Shown here: positions 3,621 through 16,438 of the stretch, in pieces
Position numbering within the stretch: the first letter of the stretch is position 1
How the letters are laid out: each line of letters starts with the position of its first letter
NCBI RefSeq assembly: GCF_002487355.1
Contig: NZ_NTMG01000085.1
Location: 124,001-188,000, forward strand
DNA length: 64,000 nucleotides
Direction of reading: 5' to 3'
Source of the DNA: Candidatus Methanoperedens sp. BLZ2
GTDB lineage: Archaea; Halobacteriota; Methanosarcinia; Methanosarcinales; Methanoperedenaceae
Position numbers and translations under genes: made by a program
Notes under the pieces: model-generated
Told to the model about the DNA's origin: nothing
Database searches by the model: none
The model's input: the letters and a program-made list of their open reading frames with translations, nothing else

Positions 3621-3727
3621 TCAGCGAGAATCGATATTGAACCAATTTCATGAAGTCGTAGCACATCCACCGGAATTTTTCGGTCTGCTAGGCTTGTTAT
3701 AAGGTTTCTGAGGATACAAATACCTTA

Positions 3728-3786
3728 CCCGCCTTGTGATCGTGACTCATATCGCATCCTAGATGACGTCTATGCTTTGCTGTTTT
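3728..3786 (+). repeat. dispersed repeat, copy A
   Basis: This block matches 11804-11862 closely; both contain a shared CTCATATCGCATCCT core preceded by GATCGTG, and weaker similarity continues into a T-rich tail. Each copy is followed within ~30-50 bases by a tRNA-like fragment. The arrangement suggests two ends of an insertion or a duplicated attachment region. Confidence 0.55.
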
Positions 3787-3811
3787 GTGAAATTAACCAA
3801 AAAAAGTATAA

Positions 3812-3941: not shown

Positions 3942-4148
3942 TTATACGCCGGATTTAGAGACACTCTTGAAAAACTTTCTGCGAAGAATAATATCAAATA
4001 ATGCGGTTGTTATCATTTGATTTCTGTCCTCAAATAATCCCTCTGCAATACACTTGTCCATTTTATCAATTATTTTTTGATCAAGTTCGAGACACATAAC
4101 GTCACCGTTATCGTTTTTTGGTATGTTTGTATTGAATGACATATTCAT
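3942..4148 (-). CDS. small CopG/RHH-type DNA-binding protein (68 aa)
   Basis: Sequence includes a VMCLELDQKIIDKMDKCIA strand-helix block followed by DRNQMITTALFDIIL, the strand-helix-helix layout of ribbon-helix-helix regulators. ATG codons at M1 and M3 are both possible. A TATA-like sequence and a perfect 7+7 palindrome (4157-4172) lie directly upstream, which suggests that the protein represses its own promoter. It is the last minus-strand gene at the left end of the element. Probable role: copy-number or transfer control; the target is inferred only. Confidence 0.65.
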   Translation of the reverse strand: MNMSFNTNIPKNDNGDVMCLELDQKIIDKMDKCIAEGLFEDRNQMITTALFDIILRRKFFKSVSKSGV

Positions 4149-5427: not shown

Positions 5428-5683
5428 TTTTGATGTTTGATGACTGTAATTTTTGTATCAGCTGCACGATATCCCGGGTATGTGACTCGTCAAGATCTTG
5501 AGAGATCCGAACGTGCAGTTTTGATAGTTGTGTGAGATTTTTTCGAATCGCTTGTGTGGATCTATGGTGTTTTTTTAGGTCCCTCAAGAATTGATTGAGA
5601 GTGAACGACACTTTAAGATATTCCCATGCCTCTTTTCTTTTTGAGGATCCCATGTTGCGAATTTCCGAAAGTATGTCACTCAT
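5411..5683 (-). CDS. basic helical protein of the element (90 aa)
   Basis: Starts MSDILSEIRNMGSSKRKEAWEYL; the rest is helical and basic with many Lys, His and Arg (LRDLKKHHRSTQAIRKN). The ATG overlaps the stop of the 126-aa gene as ATGA. Nucleic-acid binding is plausible from charge alone. No homologue recognised. Confidence 0.55.
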   Translation of the reverse strand: MSDILSEIRNMGSSKRKEAWEYLKVSFTLNQFLRDLKKHHRSTQAIRKNLTQLSKLHVRISQDLDESHTRDIVQLIQKLQSSNIKNDTKK

Positions 5684-6060
5684 TTTTTGCCTTCTTTGCC
5701 CTTGTTTATATCTTCTTTTTCTTCTTTAGGTTCAGATATAAAACCGAGGGCTATCATTATATTCCTGATTTCATCTTCCCTTTGGAAAATTATGGCGAAT
5801 TGATCACATATTCTGGTCTCGTTCTTTCTACAGAATGAATCACTATTCAAAACTTCACCCATTTGTTCCATAAGTCCGACCTGGCGAACTGAAAGTTCTA
5901 AAACTTGTGAATTATAGTAATTTTGTCCAGATTGTGCCAGAGCATCCCTGTAGGATTTTGATAGTTTATCTACTTTTTTTGCGAGTTCTGGCCTGTTCTT
6001 TGACCAGAAAACGTAGATTTTCTGGATATCGTTGCAATAGAGGCCAGCCTTCAGATTCAC
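5680..6060 (-). CDS. unknown protein, first gene after the iteron array (126 aa)
   Basis: Starts MNLKAGLYCNDIQKIYVFWS and ends in a lysine- and glutamate-rich tail (EPKEEKEDINKGKEGKK). Helical, with two cysteines, no known motif. It heads the minus-strand chain 5680-4585 and lies just leftward of the candidate replication origin, so a role in replication or maintenance is inferred from place alone. Confidence 0.55.
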   Translation of the reverse strand: MNLKAGLYCNDIQKIYVFWSKNRPELAKKVDKLSKSYRDALAQSGQNYYNSQVLELSVRQVGLMEQMGEVLNSDSFCRKNETRICDQFAIIFQREDEIRNIMIALGFISEPKEEKEDINKGKEGKK

Positions 6061-6118: not shown

Positions 6119-6338
6119 CCAATAACCATCCAATAACCGCCCAATAACCACCCAATAACCACTTCGAATCGCTAGCAGTAACCAGATAACCACCATAACC
6201 ACTTGAAAATATATGTTTTATATATTTTGGCCTTAAAAGTTGTTCAATATAATAATCTGTGGTTATAGTGGTTATAGTGGTTATCGTGTCTATGCAAGTG
6301 GTTATTATACTGGTTATTATATGGTTATTAGTGGTTAT
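6119..6338. other. candidate replication origin: opposed iteron arrays with AT-rich centre
   Basis: Left arm 6119-6162 is four tandem 11-base units CCAATAACC(A/G)(T/C), followed by three more AACCA copies to 6202. Right arm 6260-6338 holds seven copies of TGGTTAT, the reverse complement of the left-arm core, the first three spaced by 9 bases. Between them (6205-6255) the sequence is AT-rich (ATATATGTTTTATATATTTT). The array sits between the operon for small proteins and the stop of the DUF927-type ATPase gene. Phased repeats in both directions around an AT-rich core are typical of an initiator-binding origin; use as an origin is inferred. Confidence 0.65.
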
Positions 6339-6364
6339 TGTGTTATTATAGATATACATATTAT

Positions 6365-8392
6365 TCATTTCGGCCACCCCATCTTCAAAATGAAGTCATC
6401 AATAGCCGGTTCATTCTCAAGTGCCAAAGAAACTGATAGTGCTTCTCTCATTCTTTCCCGGATCTGTACCAACTCCTCTTTATTTGCAGGTGTGGGAAAC
6501 TTACCATATCGCTCATTAAGAAATTCAAACACCTTTTCAGGATTCTGGTTTTCAGGTCTAGCCAGATATTTTGCCAGGAAGCGGATAACCCTCTTATTTC
6601 CATCATCATGTTTCTGAACAGTCGTGAATCGCCCAGGTTGTGGTGTGATAATTCCTGATGCTCTCCAGTCCTGAAAGCAGCGATTGACATCATACCCGGA
6701 TTGTTCAAGGTACTTTTTCAAGGTCTCCGGAATAAAATCAACATATCGCCGCTCGCTGTACTCTTTCCCATTTTCCAAACCCTCATATACTACAAGCCAG
6801 CCGAGGATCTCGTAATGATAAGCCCCATCATCGTCAGTGAATATTATATTATCACGTTGGGCGTGTCTCTCTGTCAGGAAAAACTTTCTCTTATTCTCCA
6901 CAAGTGACGCCACGGATTCAAGGGCCCTATCGCTATATTTTTGAATCACATTATTTTCAGAGATCTGTTCTCTCACAGCCCGGGTGAATTCTACAGCATC
7001 GACCTCCTTAATCCCGATATCCTTGAAAATTTGCTCCAATAATGTTCCGGCCAGGGCGATTGCTGCATAAGTGTCATCCAATCTCGTATCTATATTTGAT
7101 GTCGAACTGTTGAATGATGCTTTGATTTTAAGAAATTCGCCTTCTAAAGACCCGAAATTTTCAAAAACCTTCTGGATGAATAATGGGAAAATATGCCCAT
7201 AATTCACGTTTATACAGTGATTTGCTTTCTCCAGCTCCTTTGGAATTCTATCAAGGATCCCACCGTAATATTCCAGGGTCCTAACCTGAGCACCGGTGTA
7301 CATATTGTCTGAAGTAATGGGCGCTTCACCTGTCAAATGTACAACAGTATTCCAGGTACCGGGTTCTTGAAGCTTCCCGTCTTTAGTTCCTCGGTTCTTA
7401 GTTTTTCCATTGGCCCACATATATATGAGCTCCTGCAGCTGCTCTGGTTTCATGGAGCTCGTCTCATCAAGATAAATAGGCAGGTCAGTATAATTCTCGG
7501 CTACACGCTCGCTTCCAACTTTCGTTCCATCTGCTGATTGGCGAAGACCACTCGGAGAGCCAATCATGCTGCTCGCGACATTTGAGGAGGCTGTTTTTGC
7601 CGCTGTGCTTTCATAATATTGATCCAAAACATATGACTGTACATGCAAAAACCGCAACAATACGGCTGATAACGAGGTATAGCATTTGAATCGAACGATC
7701 TGGTGATCAAAGAGAGGTGAAACTCCATCGATCCAGGATGCAAGAGATCCGGAAATGTAGGATTTTTGGAGATTTCCTAAGTTTTTAACGACTTGGGGTC
7801 CTTGTACTGTGTAACCAACATCGCCAAGCACGAACATTTCATGATCATTTTTCCAGCCATTTTTGCTTACTATTTTTAGTTGTGGAAGGTACTCCGCAAG
7901 CCTATTAATGGAATATGAAAAATATGATGTTAGATCTTTAGCAAGTGGTTCCGGTACATTAACTCCCATTGCCATCAGTTCAAATATCCCGGATTTGGTC
8001 AGGACTGTCTTGTATGGTACTAGAATTTCCCGTTCTCTTCCTCCAGCATCTTTATAATTTAGTTGAACATGGCTTTCTCCCCGATCCATATCGAAACCGA
8101 GAGCCGTCACGAATATAGGAGTATAACACAATAGGACTTCACTCACCTCCCCATCGACATATTTCAGTTGAACAATACTAGAATTCACACGATATCTTTC
8201 AGCCAAAATATACCGAATTTCTTTAATATCAATTTTTTTGTTATCTCTAGGTGTGTTTTCAGCTTCGTTTTCCTCAACTATCTGCTTAGCTTCGAGATCA
8301 GCAAGCAGTTTTCTCCCTTCCTCCGACCTATCAACAATATTAGTCGGACTCTCCTGCGATATGGTATTCATGCCATCTATAGATGTTACCAT
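6365..8392 (-). CDS. DUF927-type replication ATPase/helicase-like protein
   Basis: Start set at the ATG two bases after the stop of the upstream 38-aa ORF (TGAAATG), giving 675 aa. The central region matches the DUF927 layout of plasmid and phage primase-associated ATPases: a Walker-A position reading ESTAAKT (~residues 261-267) where SSTGKT is expected, a Walker B LPIYLDE (~304-310), LIYMWANGKTKNRG and a HLTGEAP sensor-like segment. N-terminal ~200 residues are mixed alpha/beta; the C-terminal ~200 residues look helical/winged. The loss of the P-loop glycine is notable and may impair ATP binding. The gene lies next to the iteron array, so it is the likely replication protein of the element. 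Confidence 0.7.
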   Translation of the reverse strand: MVTSIDGMNTISQESPTNIVDRSEEGRKLLADLEAKQIVEENEAENTPRDNKKIDIKEIRYILAERYRVNSSIVQLKYVDGEVSEVLLCYTPIFVTALGFDMDRGESHVQLNYKDAGGREREILVPYKTVLTKSGIFELMAMGVNVPEPLAKDLTSYFSYSINRLAEYLPQLKIVSKNGWKNDHEMFVLGDVGYTVQGPQVVKNLGNLQKSYISGSLASWIDGVSPLFDHQIVRFKCYTSLSAVLLRFLHVQSYVLDQYYESTAAKTASSNVASSMIGSPSGLRQSADGTKVGSERVAENYTDLPIYLDETSSMKPEQLQELIYMWANGKTKNRGTKDGKLQEPGTWNTVVHLTGEAPITSDNMYTGAQVRTLEYYGGILDRIPKELEKANHCINVNYGHIFPLFIQKVFENFGSLEGEFLKIKASFNSSTSNIDTRLDDTYAAIALAGTLLEQIFKDIGIKEVDAVEFTRAVREQISENNVIQKYSDRALESVASLVENKRKFFLTERHAQRDNIIFTDDDGAYHYEILGWLVVYEGLENGKEYSERRYVDFIPETLKKYLEQSGYDVNRCFQDWRASGIITPQPGRFTTVQKHDDGNKRVIRFLAKYLARPENQNPEKVFEFLNERYGKFPTPANKEELVQIRERMREALSVSLALENEPAIDDFILKMGWPK

Positions 8393-8393
8393 T

Positions 8394-8510
8394 TCAGACC
8401 ACCATTCCGGGCAGGGCAAAGGCTTTTATATTTTTAGGCACATTATAGTCATTGCAGGAATTGTTTGAAATTGGAATATTCTTGACAATTCCTTCATATC
8501 TCTTCTCCAT
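8394..8510 (-). CDS. short ORF between RHH and replication genes (38 aa)
   Basis: Its ATG overlaps the stop of the RHH gene by one base and its stop is two bases before the likely start of the DUF927 protein. This spacing suggests a translated linker cistron. Sequence MEKRYEGIVKNIPISNNS... has no recognisable motif. Confidence 0.45.
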   Translation of the reverse strand: MEKRYEGIVKNIPISNNSCNDYNVPKNIKAFALPGMVV

Positions 8511-8644
8511 TACTTTGCCTCAGCATCTTCCAGTATTTTCTCGATGTATGCACTCCGGGGTATAAGCCCCCGCTTGCTCTCGATTCTCTTTAATACTCCA
8601 GTATCTAACGATATTGAAAACTTTGTGTGTGTTTTTTGCATCAT
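8510..8644 (-). CDS. RHH/Arc-type DNA-binding protein (44 aa)
   Basis: Too short for routine ORF calling but clear: KTHTKFSISLDTGVLKRIE (strand then helix) and RSAYIEKILEDAE (second helix), the full ribbon-helix-helix fold. ATG at 8644 or 8641. First gene of the minus-strand replication operon; its promoter contains a TATA-like TTTTTATATA and the repeated palindromes at 8716-8764. It is likely to autoregulate the operon, as small RHH repressors of plasmids do. Confidence 0.7.
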   Translation of the reverse strand: MMQKTHTKFSISLDTGVLKRIESKRGLIPRSAYIEKILEDAEAK

Positions 8645-8671
8645 AACAGTAATACTAATAGTACCGACTAA

Positions 8672-8764
8672 TATATAAAAAGAACCTTACTGACGTATTT
8701 TTTTCGATATAAAGAAATATTACACCTCTTTTACCTTAAAGAGGTAATTATTACGCTTGTAATA
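8672..8764 (-). promoter_or_regulatory. promoter of replication operon with repeated 28-base element and palindromes
   Basis: 8672-8699 matches 14966-14993 in 27 of 28 bases (TATATAAAAAGAACCTTACT...); read leftward it supplies a TTTTTATATA TATA box about 30 bases before the start codon. Beyond it, 8716-8764 carries AATATTAC, a perfect ACCTCTTT/AAAGAGGT inverted repeat and ATTACGCTTGTAAT. The same architecture precedes the AbrB gene at 14942. Confidence 0.65.
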
Positions 8765-9424: not shown

Positions 9425-9622
9425 ATGAATACTGAACTAAAACCACTTAAAACATTCGCTCAATCCGAGCGAGAATCGTTAATGAAACAATTCCACGATG
9501 TTGCGGCACACCCACCGCAGACAGATCCTTTCAGTCATGCAGGAGCTCAGGCTTGGCAGGAATGGACAGAGAGCTGCAGAGCCTACGAAAATCTATTATT
9601 CAGCATGGGTGTGCCACTATGA
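9425..9622 (+). CDS. small element protein (65 aa)
   Basis: MNTELKPLKTFAQSERESL... helical, with WQEWTESCRAYENLLF near the end. Upstream AGGCAG is a weak RBS. Stop overlaps the next gene's ATG (ATGA), marking the start of a five-gene coupled operon leading to the ArdC-type protein. No family recognised. Confidence 0.55.
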   Translation: MNTELKPLKTFAQSERESLMKQFHDVAAHPPQTDPFSHAGAQAWQEWTESCRAYENLLFSMGVPL

Positions 9623-9873: not shown

Positions 9874-10731
9874 ATGTCATCTTCTTTTTCCGTCTATGAT
9901 ATCATCACGGACCAGATCATCAAGAAACTCGAATCTGGATGCATACCATGGAGAAAAGCCTATGCAGGAGGATTCCCGCAAAATGGGATATCCAAGAAAG
10001 ACTACCGAGGTATAAACTCGATCATGCTTCTGTGTGAATCACGATCTAATCCATACTGGCTAACTTTCAAGCAGATTAACGAGATGGGCGGGCATGTTAA
10101 GAAAGGAGAACATGCAAGCAAAGTGATCTTCGTCAAACCTGTCAAGAACATCTCTGAAAACGAAGCGGGAGAACTCGAAGAATCCAGAGGCGCGATAATG
10201 AGATATTACAATGTCTTTAACTTCGATCAGACTGAAGGACTACCTGCAGAGAAGTTCTCAGTCGAGTTGAAACATCATGAGCCGATCCCGGAAGCGGAAG
10301 CAATCATCAAAGGATATCAGGGCGCGCCAATAGTCCAACATAAGGAGCAGCGAGCTTATTATTCACCCGGGCAGGATTATATCAATATGCCGATCCTTGG
10401 AAGCTATGATGAACCCGAATTTTATTATAAAACGTTATTCCATGAGCTAACTCACTCCACAGGCCATACGTCCAGGTTAGATCGCGGCCTGACAGGTCAT
10501 TCAGCATCCGGTGAAGAAGAATATTCCAAAGAAGAACTTGTCGCAGAAATAGGAGCCTCGTTTTTATCCGGGCATTGTGGCATTTTCAATGATCCGCAAT
10601 TGGAGCAATCAGCAGCTTACATCAATTCCTGGATTAAAGCATTGAAAAATGATAAACAGATGCTCATTCAGGCTGCAGCTAAAGCTCAGAAAGCAGCTGA
10701 TTTCATCCTTGGAAGGCAGGTGATTTCATGA
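9874..10731 (+). CDS. ArdC-type antirestriction protein (ssDNA-binding domain plus zincin metallopeptidase)
   Basis: A strong AAGGAGGTGA precedes the ATG. N-terminal ~130 residues match the ArdC-like ssDNA-binding domain (DUF1738): IIKKLESGCIPWRKAY, GINSIMLL, WLTFKQINEMGGHVKKGEHA. The C-terminal half is the MPTase-PolyVal zincin domain with FHELTHSTGHTSRLDR (His-Glu-x-x-His) and EELVAEIGASFL supplying the third acidic ligand. ArdC proteins protect incoming plasmids against host restriction and coat ssDNA during conjugation. Full length (285 aa; family ~290-310). Its presence supports a conjugative or transferable element. Confidence 0.9.
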   Translation: MSSSFSVYDIITDQIIKKLESGCIPWRKAYAGGFPQNGISKKDYRGINSIMLLCESRSNPYWLTFKQINEMGGHVKKGEHASKVIFVKPVKNISENEAGELEESRGAIMRYYNVFNFDQTEGLPAEKFSVELKHHEPIPEAEAIIKGYQGAPIVQHKEQRAYYSPGQDYINMPILGSYDEPEFYYKTLFHELTHSTGHTSRLDRGLTGHSASGEEEYSKEELVAEIGASFLSGHCGIFNDPQLEQSAAYINSWIKALKNDKQMLIQAAAKAQKAADFILGRQVIS

Positions 10732-11176: not shown

Positions 11177-11803
11177 CTGTATGCCTTTGAATGGAAAAGC
11201 AAACGACAACGCATGAAGATAGGGGTATTTGGCAGTTCTCCCGAATGCCAACATGCCAGCCTTTGAAAAGGCTTAGGCCAAACTTTCCGGGTATGCCTTC
11301 TGTTGAAGGCAGTTATTGTTTTGGTAATAGATACCAAGTCTTTTAATTTGTTAATGGCGCGATAGCGCGCAAGTTCTAATGTTATCGAATCAACTTATCC
11401 AGGAAGAAGAACAAACGAGAAGCGGATAATTTATAACTCTATAATATAGTAATAATTGTATCGATTATCCCAGGCATGCAGCTCTCATCTTGTTATCAAG
11501 TCTGGTATTAGGAAAGACACACGCCCACCGCTATCGAATTAATGGTAAATTCTTTAAATCTTCATCATCTTATATAAGTCTCTCCATCGCTTGAAAAAAT
11601 ATTAAAAAACCTTAATCGGTTTGGGTTAATATAATAGCATGATTATAAATATATTGATTCCAGCCCGACATTTTGAAGATCCATATTTACCAGGGAAAAT
11701 CTTTTTGAAAAAGAGATCTGATTTTTAAAAAATTTTGAATTTTGCTCGAAAAAATTAGGTTTTTTAGGCTGCGTATAACGATTTCATAGGGAATAGATCA
11801 TTA

Positions 11804-11862
11804 ACCGCCCTGAGATCGTGCCTCATATCGCATCCTGGAGGCTATCGCTGCTTATCGTTTTT
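11804..11862 (+). repeat. dispersed repeat, copy B
   Basis: Matches copy A at 3728-3786, including the shared CTCATATCGCATCCT core. It is followed by a tRNA 3' fragment, as copy A is followed by a tRNA-like 5' fragment. Confidence 0.55.
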
Positions 11863-11880
11863 TGATATATGAAAAGGAAT

Positions 11881-12334: not shown

Positions 12335-13168
12335 ATGAGGTGTACATTTCATATAATAAAACAAATGGAAAATATAATAATGCCTTTAGGCAAAAGAATT
12401 GAAAATTTTTTTGTTTGTAAGGGACATAAAATAGACCATGCTACATATCAGTTCTTTCTAAACACGAAGAGGGCTCCTGTTCCAACCTCAGAAGATATAA
12501 AAGAAGCAGAAGATCTTGCAAAAAAATTAAAAGGAAACTCTAGCAGAGATACTTTAGATAATATAATAAAATATCAAAATGAGAATATAGCCTATTTTAA
12601 TGAAAGAGCCGTTTGCCTTGATGCATTTATATATTCAATTATATTTGGATTATTAGTAATTCTTAGTCTTGTGCCAGCAGTATCATCACAAACATTATTA
12701 ATAATTTATATTACATTTTTAATATTCTGTCAACTGGGCATAATAATGGTCACTGTTGATAGATTTAGGAAAAAAATGAAATGGAAAAAGGAAAAGTTTC
12801 ATTTGAAAGAATTAATACAATCTATAATAGAAGCTTCGAAATATGGGATATTTCAAAAAGATATGCCGGTAAAAAAAATATTGGACTGGAAACTTGCAAT
12901 ATGCCGAGATTATGCAAGACTCACAGCATCTTTGCTCCGTAATCTATTTCCTGATTCTGAACTTTATTTTATTTTTATGCATGACCATGTGGTAGCAGGA
13001 ATAAAAATCAACAATGAAATTAATGTCTTTGACCCTCATTATGATAACCCGACTCCGCCAACCGTTCTTAAGTTGGATGAATGGTTAAATAAAAAGGAGT
13101 TAAATGTCGATGCCTTTGCATCAAAAAAGGATTCAACACTTCGGTTTTATTATAAACATAATAAATAA
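12335..13168 (+). CDS. membrane-anchored transglutaminase-like cysteine protein
   Basis: Two adjacent membrane segments (~100-145: AFIYSIIFGLLVILSLVPA and LLIIYITFLIFCQLGIIMV) divide an N-terminal helical part from a C-terminal domain. The C-terminal domain shows the transglutaminase/papain-like triad order: Cys in LAICRDYARLTASLL, His in MHDHVVAGIKI, Asp in NVFDPHYD. Archaeal proteins of this fold are usually peptidases or protein-modifying enzymes. Start is uncertain; ATG at 12365 (MENIIMPLGK) is also possible. Codon use is AT-rich and it stands alone between repeats and a pseudogene, in keeping with accessory DNA. Confidence 0.7.
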   Translation: MRCTFHIIKQMENIIMPLGKRIENFFVCKGHKIDHATYQFFLNTKRAPVPTSEDIKEAEDLAKKLKGNSSRDTLDNIIKYQNENIAYFNERAVCLDAFIYSIIFGLLVILSLVPAVSSQTLLIIYITFLIFCQLGIIMVTVDRFRKKMKWKKEKFHLKELIQSIIEASKYGIFQKDMPVKKILDWKLAICRDYARLTASLLRNLFPDSELYFIFMHDHVVAGIKINNEINVFDPHYDNPTPPTVLKLDEWLNKKELNVDAFASKKDSTLRFYYKHNK

Positions 13169-13376: not shown

Positions 13377-14470
13377 TTATTTTGAAAATTTTTGCGTCAC
13401 TGAAAGTGCAAGTACCACATGCGGTAACCCTCGCTTCCTCAGAATAGACCTTATTCTTCCAAAATCTTTCGGAATGGATGCCTGATCAATAAGAAAATCA
13501 ACAGCTTTGATTATGATTGCTTCAGTACTCTCCTGTTCTTCTTCCGATCTCCGGGCCTCTAGTGCACGCAACTTCGCGTCTAGGATTTTGATGAGTTCAT
13601 TATAAGTGATAATGTTTTTCATCCCTTCAAGTCCCTTGAAAATCCGAGCTACCGTATAGGGAGGAGTCAACATTTCCATAAGACGCCCCGCTAGTGGAAA
13701 CCGGCTGACTTAATTTTAATTTTCCAAGTGTCGTATATCGGAAATAGATTAGTTCTGATCTGAGCAATACTGCCTTATTTTCTTCAATCAAGATATTCGC
13801 GGGAATCCCCTGCGTCATATTTATGATGATGGACCGACTTTCTAAGGTTGCGAGAAACGCCCTGGTAGAAGCGATAGCTTTGAAGCCATACACATCAAAA
13901 GCAGTTGGAATCCTAGAGTCTCCCTCTGTAAGTTATATATTTCTGTAAACTTCAACCGCTGAACATTCCCTGCAGCCATTCGGCAATTTCCATATCGGCT
14001 TAACTAATTCAACAGGAAACGAAGGTTTAAATGCGCCTTTACGGCCACAATCGAGATTTTCACACTCAAATGGTTCAGTCAATTTTCCATTTTGTGGAAC
14101 ATATGTTTTTTCTCCACATCTTTTACACTCGAAAAAAACCAATTCTTTCCTCAATTAAGGAGGATTCATCAGAACTGGGCTGAACTATTTTCAATGAGCC
14201 ATTTATTGCGACTTCTGGAGGCCCCCTGAACTTTTCTCGCAGATAGGGGACATTCCTTTGTACAATTTTGATGTGACCCGCTCCTTTCTCCATCTCTAAA
14301 AGTTGATCACTGGCGCAAGTATAGTAGGTTCCATCCTTTGATTTTTCATATGTGAATGGCAGTTCATGATTTATTGTTTCGATCGTGAAGGAAGTTTTAA
14401 AATGTTCCTTCTCATCGTCATCAAATTCCATCCTATTCACCCCGAACACAAGTATTATATATTTCAACAA
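13377..14470 (-). pseudogene. decayed replicative helicase gene (MCM-like Zn/OB part plus ATPase C-terminal part)
   Basis: Four frames together resemble one broken gene. 14470-14123 encodes an N-terminal part ending in SSLIEERIGFF; a frame change in a T7 run passes into 14154-13933, which has the MCM-type zinc site FECKRCGEK...EPFECENLDCGRKGAF. An in-frame TAA separates it from LTEGDSRIPTAFDVYGFKAI..LESRSIIINM, typical of the sensor/arginine-finger side of plasmid primase-helicases. A second shift in a G4 run (TSG then RLMEMLTPPYTVARIF) leads into 13679-13377. The Walker A/B core is missing. The pieces overlap as expected from simple indels, so this is a pseudogene rather than four genes, though the 115-aa and 73-aa pieces could still be made. 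Confidence 0.6.
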
Positions 14471-14536: not shown

Positions 14537-14737
14537 TCATTTCTGTGTTGCCCCAAAGTAACTTCTCAAAGCAACTACTACAGCCCTCTCAAGAACAGGG
14601 AACAGAGGAAGCAGCGTATCATCTGTACTAATCAGAGATTCAATTTTCGCAATCTGGTCGGGCGTCAGTTTCAACATTGGTGACACCCGTCCGAAAGGAT
14701 TAAGGTACCTGAGATGTAATACATCATACCCAGTCAT
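14537..14737 (-). CDS. small helical protein (66 aa)
   Basis: Overlaps the upstream AbrB-type gene by 14 bases. Contains LKLTPDQIAKIESLISTDD and a second hydrophobic helix LFPVLERAVVVALRSYF. Possibly the partner of the AbrB-type protein in a toxin-antitoxin-like pair, but no toxin motif is visible. Confidence 0.5.
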   Translation of the reverse strand: MTGYDVLHLRYLNPFGRVSPMLKLTPDQIAKIESLISTDDTLLPLFPVLERAVVVALRSYFGATQK

Positions 14738-14942
14738 CTCTGTGTATTTTGGCTGTGGCCGCGCCGGTTTTCTGCTTGGCCGCGTCTACCGGCGTTATGG
14801 TCATCTTTTTTCCATCAACTGATACCATGACCTCATCCCCTGCTTTCAAAGGATTCTGCGAATCTTTTCTTACATCACTAGGAATGTATATGTGGATGCC
14901 CGTGGCGCCGAACTTCTGAATTTTAGTTTTTGCTTCCTTCAT
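14724..14942 (-). CDS. AbrB/SpoVT-type DNA-binding protein (72 aa)
   Basis: Shows the swapped-hairpin pattern: KIQKFGATGIHIYIPSDVRKD, then NPLKAGDEVMVSVDGKKMTITP. First gene of a short minus-strand operon. The promoter has a TATA-like element and the same 28-base sequence and palindromes found before the RHH gene at 8644, so both operons are probably under one control. Regulator role is inferred from family. Confidence 0.75.
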   Translation of the reverse strand: MKEAKTKIQKFGATGIHIYIPSDVRKDSQNPLKAGDEVMVSVDGKKMTITPVDAAKQKTGAATAKIHRDDWV

Positions 14943-14965
14943 TAGGGGTATATAGTAGCAAAAAG

Positions 14966-15089
14966 TATATAAAAAGAACCTTACTGATGTATTATTTTAG
15001 TATAATTTGGATTTTTATAGGTTATATTTGAAATCACGAACATATAAACGCCTGAAATATTACACATGTAATATTACATCCGTAATAAT
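14966..15089 (-). promoter_or_regulatory. promoter of AbrB operon, second copy of shared regulatory region
   Basis: 14966-14993 repeats 8672-8699 with one mismatch. 15056-15089 holds AATATTAC-acat-GTAATATT followed by another ATTAC-N6-GTAAT half-site pair. The 243-base spacer 14943-15185 holds nothing else visible. Confidence 0.65.
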
Positions 15090-15185: not shown

Positions 15186-16331
15186 TCATTTCTTTGCAGC
15201 TTTCATTATGGCTTCAGCGAATAATTTCTGAAATTCCGGATCTCCCTGCATCGTCATGAGGATTTCGGGGATAAGCTTTGTCTTTTCATCAACTTGTTTT
15301 GCAACATTCTTATCTAGGATAAGCCCGCAGATCGCACAATATTTCGCGTCAATTGGGTTGTCGGTAGCACATCTAGGACACTTCCCGGGTTTCAAGGTCT
15401 TAAACAGAAGTTCTCCATCATCCCTAATCAATCCATTCTTGGCGAGGAGCTTCCTATCAACATCGCCCCCTGCAAGATGAACATAAACTGCTGGCATACC
15501 GCTCTCTTTTTCCCAACCGGCGAGGATCCGCAGCTCAGACTCAAAAAATCCCTGTTTCACGAATAAGGTAAGTCTCCCATGTCTGAGCGCGTGAGGATGT
15601 ACGTTCTTATCAAGGCTAGCCAATTTACCCGCTGTCTTGAGCATGTTCTGGACTGTGCGCTGGTCCATCCTACATTCTTCCATTACTTTACTCTCCTTAT
15701 GATTATATCGTCTCTCAGTAACAAAAAGTGGCGCATCGTTTTTATTTTTTATTGGATGCTGGTTAAGCCAAAGTCGAACATCTGGGAGAGAATCGATCAG
15801 CCTTACCTTCCGCATGCCGGTCTTGCCATCTACTATCATGGTGGCTCCATGTTCATCAGTTTGGATGTGATTGACATTCCGACTCAATACCTCATTCAAT
15901 CTACATCCTGAGTCCCACAGGAGCATGATAATCGCCCTATCCCGCTGGCTCTTGCATACCGAAATCAATTTCTTGACGTCTTCTGGTGTTATTAGTTGCT
16001 CTACAGGTAAATAGTTCTTAGGCTGCTTGACTTTAATATCATCAAAGAAATCGTTCCCCGGTTTTAACCAATCAAAGAATTTCCGCAAGGCTATAATATC
16101 ATTGTTTACCGTCCTCTGCTTGTTGTTATTGCGCCTGTAGATAATATAGTCCCGAATATCCTGCCTGGTTAATTCATTACCACGCTTGAAGCCAAAATGT
16201 TTTAGTGCAGCATAGATCTTCCACAAATAACCATCTATCGTCAGCCTTCCTAGTTGGTTTAATTCAAGGGTTGTCTGATATTGTTTCAAGATCTCAGCAT
16301 TTTTTCCTGGAAATATGGGTGGATGTTGCAT
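15186..16331 (-). CDS. tyrosine recombinase/integrase with C-terminal zinc ribbon
   Basis: 381 aa. Residues ~10-95 form the SAM-like core-binding domain (GYLWKIYAALKHFGFKRG). The catalytic domain has the first Arg in LLWDSGCRLNEVL, the HxLRH box in VHPHALRHGRL, a Gly-Trp (LAGWEKES) in the later His/Trp position and the nucleophile Tyr in PAVYVHLAGG. A C-terminal ribbon CPRCATDNPIDAKYCAICG is added, as in several archaeal integrases. The gene lies 50 bases from a tRNA-Leu 3' fragment, the expected place for attP/attR. It most likely integrates and excises the element. Confidence 0.9.
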   Translation of the reverse strand: MQHPPIFPGKNAEILKQYQTTLELNQLGRLTIDGYLWKIYAALKHFGFKRGNELTRQDIRDYIIYRRNNNKQRTVNNDIIALRKFFDWLKPGNDFFDDIKVKQPKNYLPVEQLITPEDVKKLISVCKSQRDRAIIMLLWDSGCRLNEVLSRNVNHIQTDEHGATMIVDGKTGMRKVRLIDSLPDVRLWLNQHPIKNKNDAPLFVTERRYNHKESKVMEECRMDQRTVQNMLKTAGKLASLDKNVHPHALRHGRLTLFVKQGFFESELRILAGWEKESGMPAVYVHLAGGDVDRKLLAKNGLIRDDGELLFKTLKPGKCPRCATDNPIDAKYCAICGLILDKNVAKQVDEKTKLIPEILMTMQGDPEFQKLFAEAIMKAAKK

Positions 16332-16380: not shown

Positions 16381-16438
16381 CGCAGGATTTAGGGTCCTGT
16401 CTCGCAGGAGTTCATGGGTTCGAATCCCATCCTCCGCA
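16381..16438 (+). pseudogene. 3' fragment of tRNA-Leu(UAG): attachment-site copy
   Basis: Reads as an anticodon stem-loop CAGGA-TTTAGGG-TCCTG (anticodon TAG), a long variable arm, T arm ATGGG-TTCGAAT-CCCAT and acceptor 3' strand CCTCCGC with discriminator A. Upstream bases cannot form a D arm or a matching GCGGAGG acceptor. Such a fragment beginning at the anticodon stem next to an integrase gene is the usual sign of tRNA-targeted integration. No intact tRNA-Leu is present in the window. Confidence 0.8.

Follow-up and report, generated by a model that had tools for sequence, protein, structure and literature searches.

SaPI Rep recognizes iterons directly downstream of its own gene through its C-terminal domain, and SaPIbov1 Rep has a relative in Cch, a protein that contains DUF927 (PMC7581432). 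In PICIs, the origin follows rep immediately on the 3′ side and comprises two sets of iterons with an AT-rich region between them; the PICI rep-ori drives plasmid replication, a function tested in E. coli (PMC6092414). DUF927 proteins have been predicted to be the replicative helicases of mobile elements and are often fused to primases (PMC5862659). We analyzed a 64,000-nucleotide stretch of DNA from Candidatus Methanoperedens sp. BLZ2, referred to as the window, to which all positions refer unless a contig is named. An array of opposed iterons at 6119–6346 is very probably the replication origin of an integrated element, used by a DUF927 helicase that would load from both sides. The evidence supports a candidate origin of the SaPI/PICI type: the DUF927 helicase encoded by the neighboring gene is a homologue of SaPIbov1 Rep, the array lies immediately 3′ of that gene, and two iteron sets surround an AT-rich core. 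The initial annotation had proposed an origin at this place, and the helicase neighbor, the 3′ position, the iteron layout, and recurrence in relatives lend support to that proposal.

Read from the sequence, the region 6119–6346 contains 14 six-base units, of which 13 are ATAACC and one is GTAACC, and seven plus-strand units to the left of the core face seven minus-strand units to the right in a plan of 4+3 units, a 60-bp AT-rich core, and 3+4 units. Within each arm, the outer four units are stepped at 10–12 bp and the inner three at 8–9 bp, with 21–23 bp between the two sets; the helical phasing originally ascribed to the array therefore holds for the outer units and fails for the inner ones. 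The left outer iterons (6121–6160, plus strand) are four AATAACC units at 6121, 6132, 6143, and 6154, which place ATAACC at 6122, 6133, 6144, and 6155, exactly 11 bp apart as first described. These four had been taken for the whole left arm, but the complete count includes three more, GTAACC at 6178 and ATAACC at 6186 and 6195 (6178–6200, plus strand), an inner triplet whose plan recurs in relatives. All seven TGGTTAT units reported on the right were found, with GGTTAT at 6261, 6270, and 6279 in 9-bp steps (inner iterons, ATAACC on the minus strand; 6261–6284) and at 6300, 6312, 6323, and 6333 (outer iterons, minus strand; 6300–6338), followed by a degenerate eighth unit, TGTTAT, at 6341. The AT-rich center noted between the arrays corresponds to the 60-bp core (6201–6260), a candidate melting site with 20% GC versus 39% in the flanking region. 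The 64-kb window has 18 ATAACCA sites, twelve of them within the array's 220 bp; the mean count in whole-window shuffles was 10.0, and the opposed hexamer array detector gave no hits in 20 whole-window shuffles. A genome-wide search found no second occurrence of the triple AATAACC pattern in the host genome, and the array DNA had no homologues in plasmids and only short matches in 200 relatives. A CRISPR array, already dismissed in the initial annotation, and a tandem minisatellite were both ruled out by the opposed orientation and the unit size.

The two arms are arranged symmetrically. The sum of the left start and the right end is 12460–12462 in all seven pairs, giving a single axis at 6230.5, within 0.5 bp, which falls in the GGCC at 6229–6232 and bears out the mirror symmetry noticed earlier. 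All seven pairs fell on one axis in 7 of 5,000 simulations with random spacing and in 35 of 5,000 with permuted spacing. Mirrored spacer positions agree in just 15 of 44 cases, so what is symmetric is the spacing and not a copied sequence; a recent inverted duplication was ruled out on the same count, the spacers being non-palindromic. The region folds strongly when single-stranded (z −8.5), and since this folding arises from the opposed repeats, the hairpin was not counted as separate evidence. The GC skew showed no minimum, maximum, or turning point at the array.

The array begins 19–27 bp past the stop codon of a gene for a SaPIbov1 Rep/Cch-type helicase (6365–8419, minus strand; 684 aa from TTG; Pfam DUF927, 3.6e-56); translation more likely starts at an in-frame ATG near 8392. 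Sequence searches of the PDB matched the protein to SCCmec Cch (5dgk, 4.3e-13) and to a pathogenicity island protein (8tch, 1.5e-10), and a profile search was much stronger (8tch, 4.6e-62; 5dgk, 2.4e-47). An AlphaFold2 model built from 11 sequences (mean pLDDT 72.7) gave SaPIbov1 Rep as the top Foldseek match (8tch, E 9.1e-25, TM 0.71 by target length), with Cch next. By sequence, profile, and predicted fold, the protein is related to SaPIbov1 Rep and SCCmec Cch, which are self-loading MCM-like helicases, in agreement with the replication ATPase gene that had been placed beside the array. A predicted winged-helix-like C-terminal domain at about residues 540–620 (6560–6802, minus strand; AlphaFold2, moderate pLDDT of about 55–86 by block) is the candidate iteron reader; PF18662, the HTH domain of Cch, matches 10 of 16 DUF927 relatives but not the window's own protein alone. 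A canonical Walker A motif, expected for helicase activity though outside the published origin definition, is absent from the window protein, which has a degenerate ESTAAKT versus ESSTGKT, with the P-loop glycines missing and Lys-Thr kept. Several array-bearing DUF927 relatives share similar P-loop variants. A degenerate Walker A that lost the GK glycine and kept the lysine with its following serine or threonine was seen at loci L062, L063, L064, L066–L068, L070, and L071, and thus in several lineages, some of which have clear 3′ arrays. No primase was found in the window's element, and four archaeal DUF927 relatives carry an NrS-1 polymerase-type domain.

None of 30 other genomes of the genus Methanoperedens carries a DUF927 gene, so the element was probably acquired recently or only rarely, and the useful relatives are those in Methanosarcinaceae and in viral contigs. 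Beyond the window's own genome, 22 related genomes have DUF927 relatives, and they belong without exception to a single other family of the same order; those named include Methanococcoides, Methanolobus, Methanosalsum, and Methanosarcina (Methanosarcinaceae). Further relatives lie in viral contigs, and related loci were retrieved with alignment queries, a single-protein query giving none. With exact hexamers, an opposed array was present 3′ of DUF927 in 14 of 27 loci, a count that takes in L066, L067, and the doubtful L077, and in none of 14 control loci, and four loci had a 5′-side match. At L066 (10764–11032) and L067 (4574–4871), the array stands about 1.7 kb beyond DUF927, past a gene with a 3′-5′ exonuclease-like start; both loci are from the other archaeal family. 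A chain detector for opposed arrays, which allows one mismatch per unit and whose thresholds were loosened after the strict outcome was known, detected arrays in 12 of 33 DUF927 3′ flanks and in none of the 33 5′ flanks; among 308 control tiles, one scored (Fisher p for the 3′ flanks, 1e-12 against the control tiles and 1.4e-4 against the 5′ flanks). The stricter exact detector agreed in direction, with hits in 7 of 33 3′ flanks and one 5′ flank and none in control tiles, gene-body tiles, or 660 shuffles. The 21 of 33 3′ flanks that fail the chain detector include some with irregular arrays by eye. The initial annotation had made its origin reading depend on the presence of the array in related elements with the same ATPase, and opposed arrays do recur 3′ of DUF927, so that this check left the reading unrefuted.

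What recurs is the layout. Inner triplets with 8–9 bp steps face each other across roughly 60–100 bp at L053, L055, L057, L058, L059, L060, L078, and L093, and this plan of three units at 9 bp facing three at 9 bp is found with differing iteron sequences. The viral contig L093, which has GTAACC repeats in a two-tier layout with outer units, is closest to the window. Judged by eye, iteron types are similar within related helicases, being GTCACA-like at L053, L055, L059, and L060 and GTTACC/TGTACC/GTAACC at L058/L054/L093, and related helicases thus appear to tend to share iteron types. The search for AACCA/TGGTT that had been suggested for finding relatives would miss most of them, since the iteron sequence is not conserved.

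The converse scan of viral contigs with the archaeal iteron alone yielded opposed arrays at 5 of 80 examined triple-ATAACC loci, and two of the five (L181 and L188) are satellite elements with a DUF927-HTH_56 protein; because so few were opposed and only two had DUF927, the ATAACC motif alone is not diagnostic. In these two satellites, the DUF927 gene stops 27 bp before a GGGTTAT/ATAACCC array, and near-identical DNA is present in E. coli genomes, within an element that encodes an integrase, SSB, and capsid proteins. The viral contig L197 has a clean 3+3 ATAACC/GGTTAT array with 9-bp steps at 7511–7654 and no DUF927 homologue in the 8.5 kb of contig sequence covered. The exact triple motif also occurs in one other genome (G090 C1:944618), where the repeat runs in a single direction, with seven forward units and no reverse unit.

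The surrounding DNA has the features of an integrated element. A tyrosine integrase (15186–16331, minus strand; PF00589, 4.2e-16) is adjoined by a tRNA-Leu 3′ remnant (16388–16438, plus strand), the probable right end of the element; the remnant shares 84% identity with the intact tRNA-Leu at C5:121045–121130 over the latter's 3′ part. This intact gene, located on the same strand 19.3 kb leftward, may mark the other end, although the identity is only 84% and host-like genes lie in between. The first ORF beyond the array (5680–6060, minus strand; 126 aa) had no match in the family search, and a small ORF upstream of DUF927 (8510–8644, minus strand; 44 aa), ribbon-helix-helix (RHH)-like as classed by eye, is a possible regulator. 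A 55-bp repeat (84%) at 8658–8712 and 14952–15005 places a TATA-like box some 25 bp before the start of this 44-aa ORF, which heads the DUF927 genes, and of an AbrB/MazE-like gene at 14724–14942; the repeat looks like a shared promoter with a leaderless start. Two diverged repeat pairs, 3623–3672 with 9468–9517 (80%) and 3689–3793 with 11765–11868 (73%), may be left over from duplications of genes or control regions. A 73-aa ORF at 13933–14154 with a weak MCM OB/zinc match (PF17207, 3.6e-4, below the cut-off) is possibly a remnant MCM fragment, and 9874–10731, directly downstream of a SWIM-domain gene, encodes an anti-restriction protein of the ArdC type that combines the ArdC N-terminal domain and a metallopeptidase. 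No packaging or capsid genes were recognized among the scanned element genes, and the element was not filed as a PICI.

Functions in transcription and in partition were considered as alternatives. As an operator/promoter, the core would be the promoter of the minus-strand genes from 6060 down, repressed by an RHH protein on the flanking units, as a TATA-like stretch, TATATAAAA, on the minus strand within the core and small RHH-like ORFs at 3942–4148 and 8510–8644 would allow. However, fourteen sites across 220 bp are large for an operator, the next start codon is about 160 bp from the core, and the layout in relatives tracks the DUF927 3′ end and not any downstream gene, which makes this function improbable, although origin and promoter roles could coexist at the array. 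The small RHH-like ORFs, together with 11-bp direct repeats around an AT-rich core, also recall parC of plasmid R1, in which arrays of 11-bp repeats surround a promoter. Such a partition centromere, bound by an RHH adaptor, is very improbable here, as no ParA, ParM, or TubZ match was obtained among the scanned neighbors and the array tracks DUF927 genes in relatives.

Archaeal chromosomal origins have opposed boxes around an AT-rich core, and the array matches that plan, so that it could be an origin with origin recognition boxes for the host Orc1/Cdc6, DUF927 being merely adjacent. Orc1/Cdc6 is also the initiator that large Methanoperedens plasmids use (PMC9674854). We regard this as the least probable alternative, because an ORB-like consensus pattern gives only chance matches with three mismatches, none of them in the array, and the array units are 6–7 bp and differ between lineages. 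A chromosomal ORB was ruled out by the lack of any match to this consensus in the array.

For the origin used by the DUF927 helicase, we propose that the element excises and that the DUF927 protein would bind the iterons via its C-terminal winged-helix domain, with one assembly per side of the AT-rich core. The mirror layout of seven units facing seven would set a pair of helicase rings around the core, facing in opposite directions; the core would then melt, and the two helicases would move outward in bidirectional theta replication; we infer that the origin may be active today. Counted against the origin reading are the degenerate Walker A, the non-match to PF18662, the failure to find a primase, the flat GC skew, and the 3′ flanks that fail the detector. 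More tentatively, and with rather more doubt than belief, DUF927 helicases with private, fast-diverging iterons in a fixed dyad layout could form a single origin class across archaeal and bacterial mobile elements, in which the spacing would encode the loading of two opposed rings, like the MCM double hexamer without ORC, and which lineages with a degenerate P-loop would still use. The array is a concrete and testable candidate origin for mobile elements of Methanoperedens and Methanosarcinales that could become replicons for genetic tools, and it would extend to archaea the SaPI/PICI origin plan described from bacteria. The diverged helicase–iteron pairs provide a natural experiment in origin reading by a self-loading helicase and bear on whether dyad-symmetric iterons place two hexamers without ORC.

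Among known systems, Orc1/Cdc6 origins of Methanoperedens plasmids (PMC9674854) share the host genus and the placement of repeats and an AT-rich region by the initiator gene, but their initiator belongs to another family, and no Orc1/Cdc6-type boxes were found at the array. SCCmec Cch (DUF927, PDB 5dgk) is a homologous helicase (E 4.3e-13) encoded by a staphylococcal cassette element, the comparison with it covering the helicase. The Gram-negative PICI origins (EcCI, PMC6092414) have two iteron sets around an AT-rich region immediately 3′ of rep, as in the window, whereas a phage-dependent life cycle is not indicated for the window's element. The E. coli DUF927 satellite likewise carries ATAACCC-type units 27 bp after rep, although its array has more irregularly spaced units. 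SaPIbov1 Rep and its origin share the same initiator helicase family (8tch, the top fold match) and iterons directly 3′ of rep; the window differs in its archaeal host, degenerate P-loop, lack of a detected primase, and ATAACC units in a mirror of 4+3 and 3+4. The SaPIbov1 iterons are read by the C-terminal domain, and the predicted winged-helix-like domain of the window's protein is a candidate counterpart.
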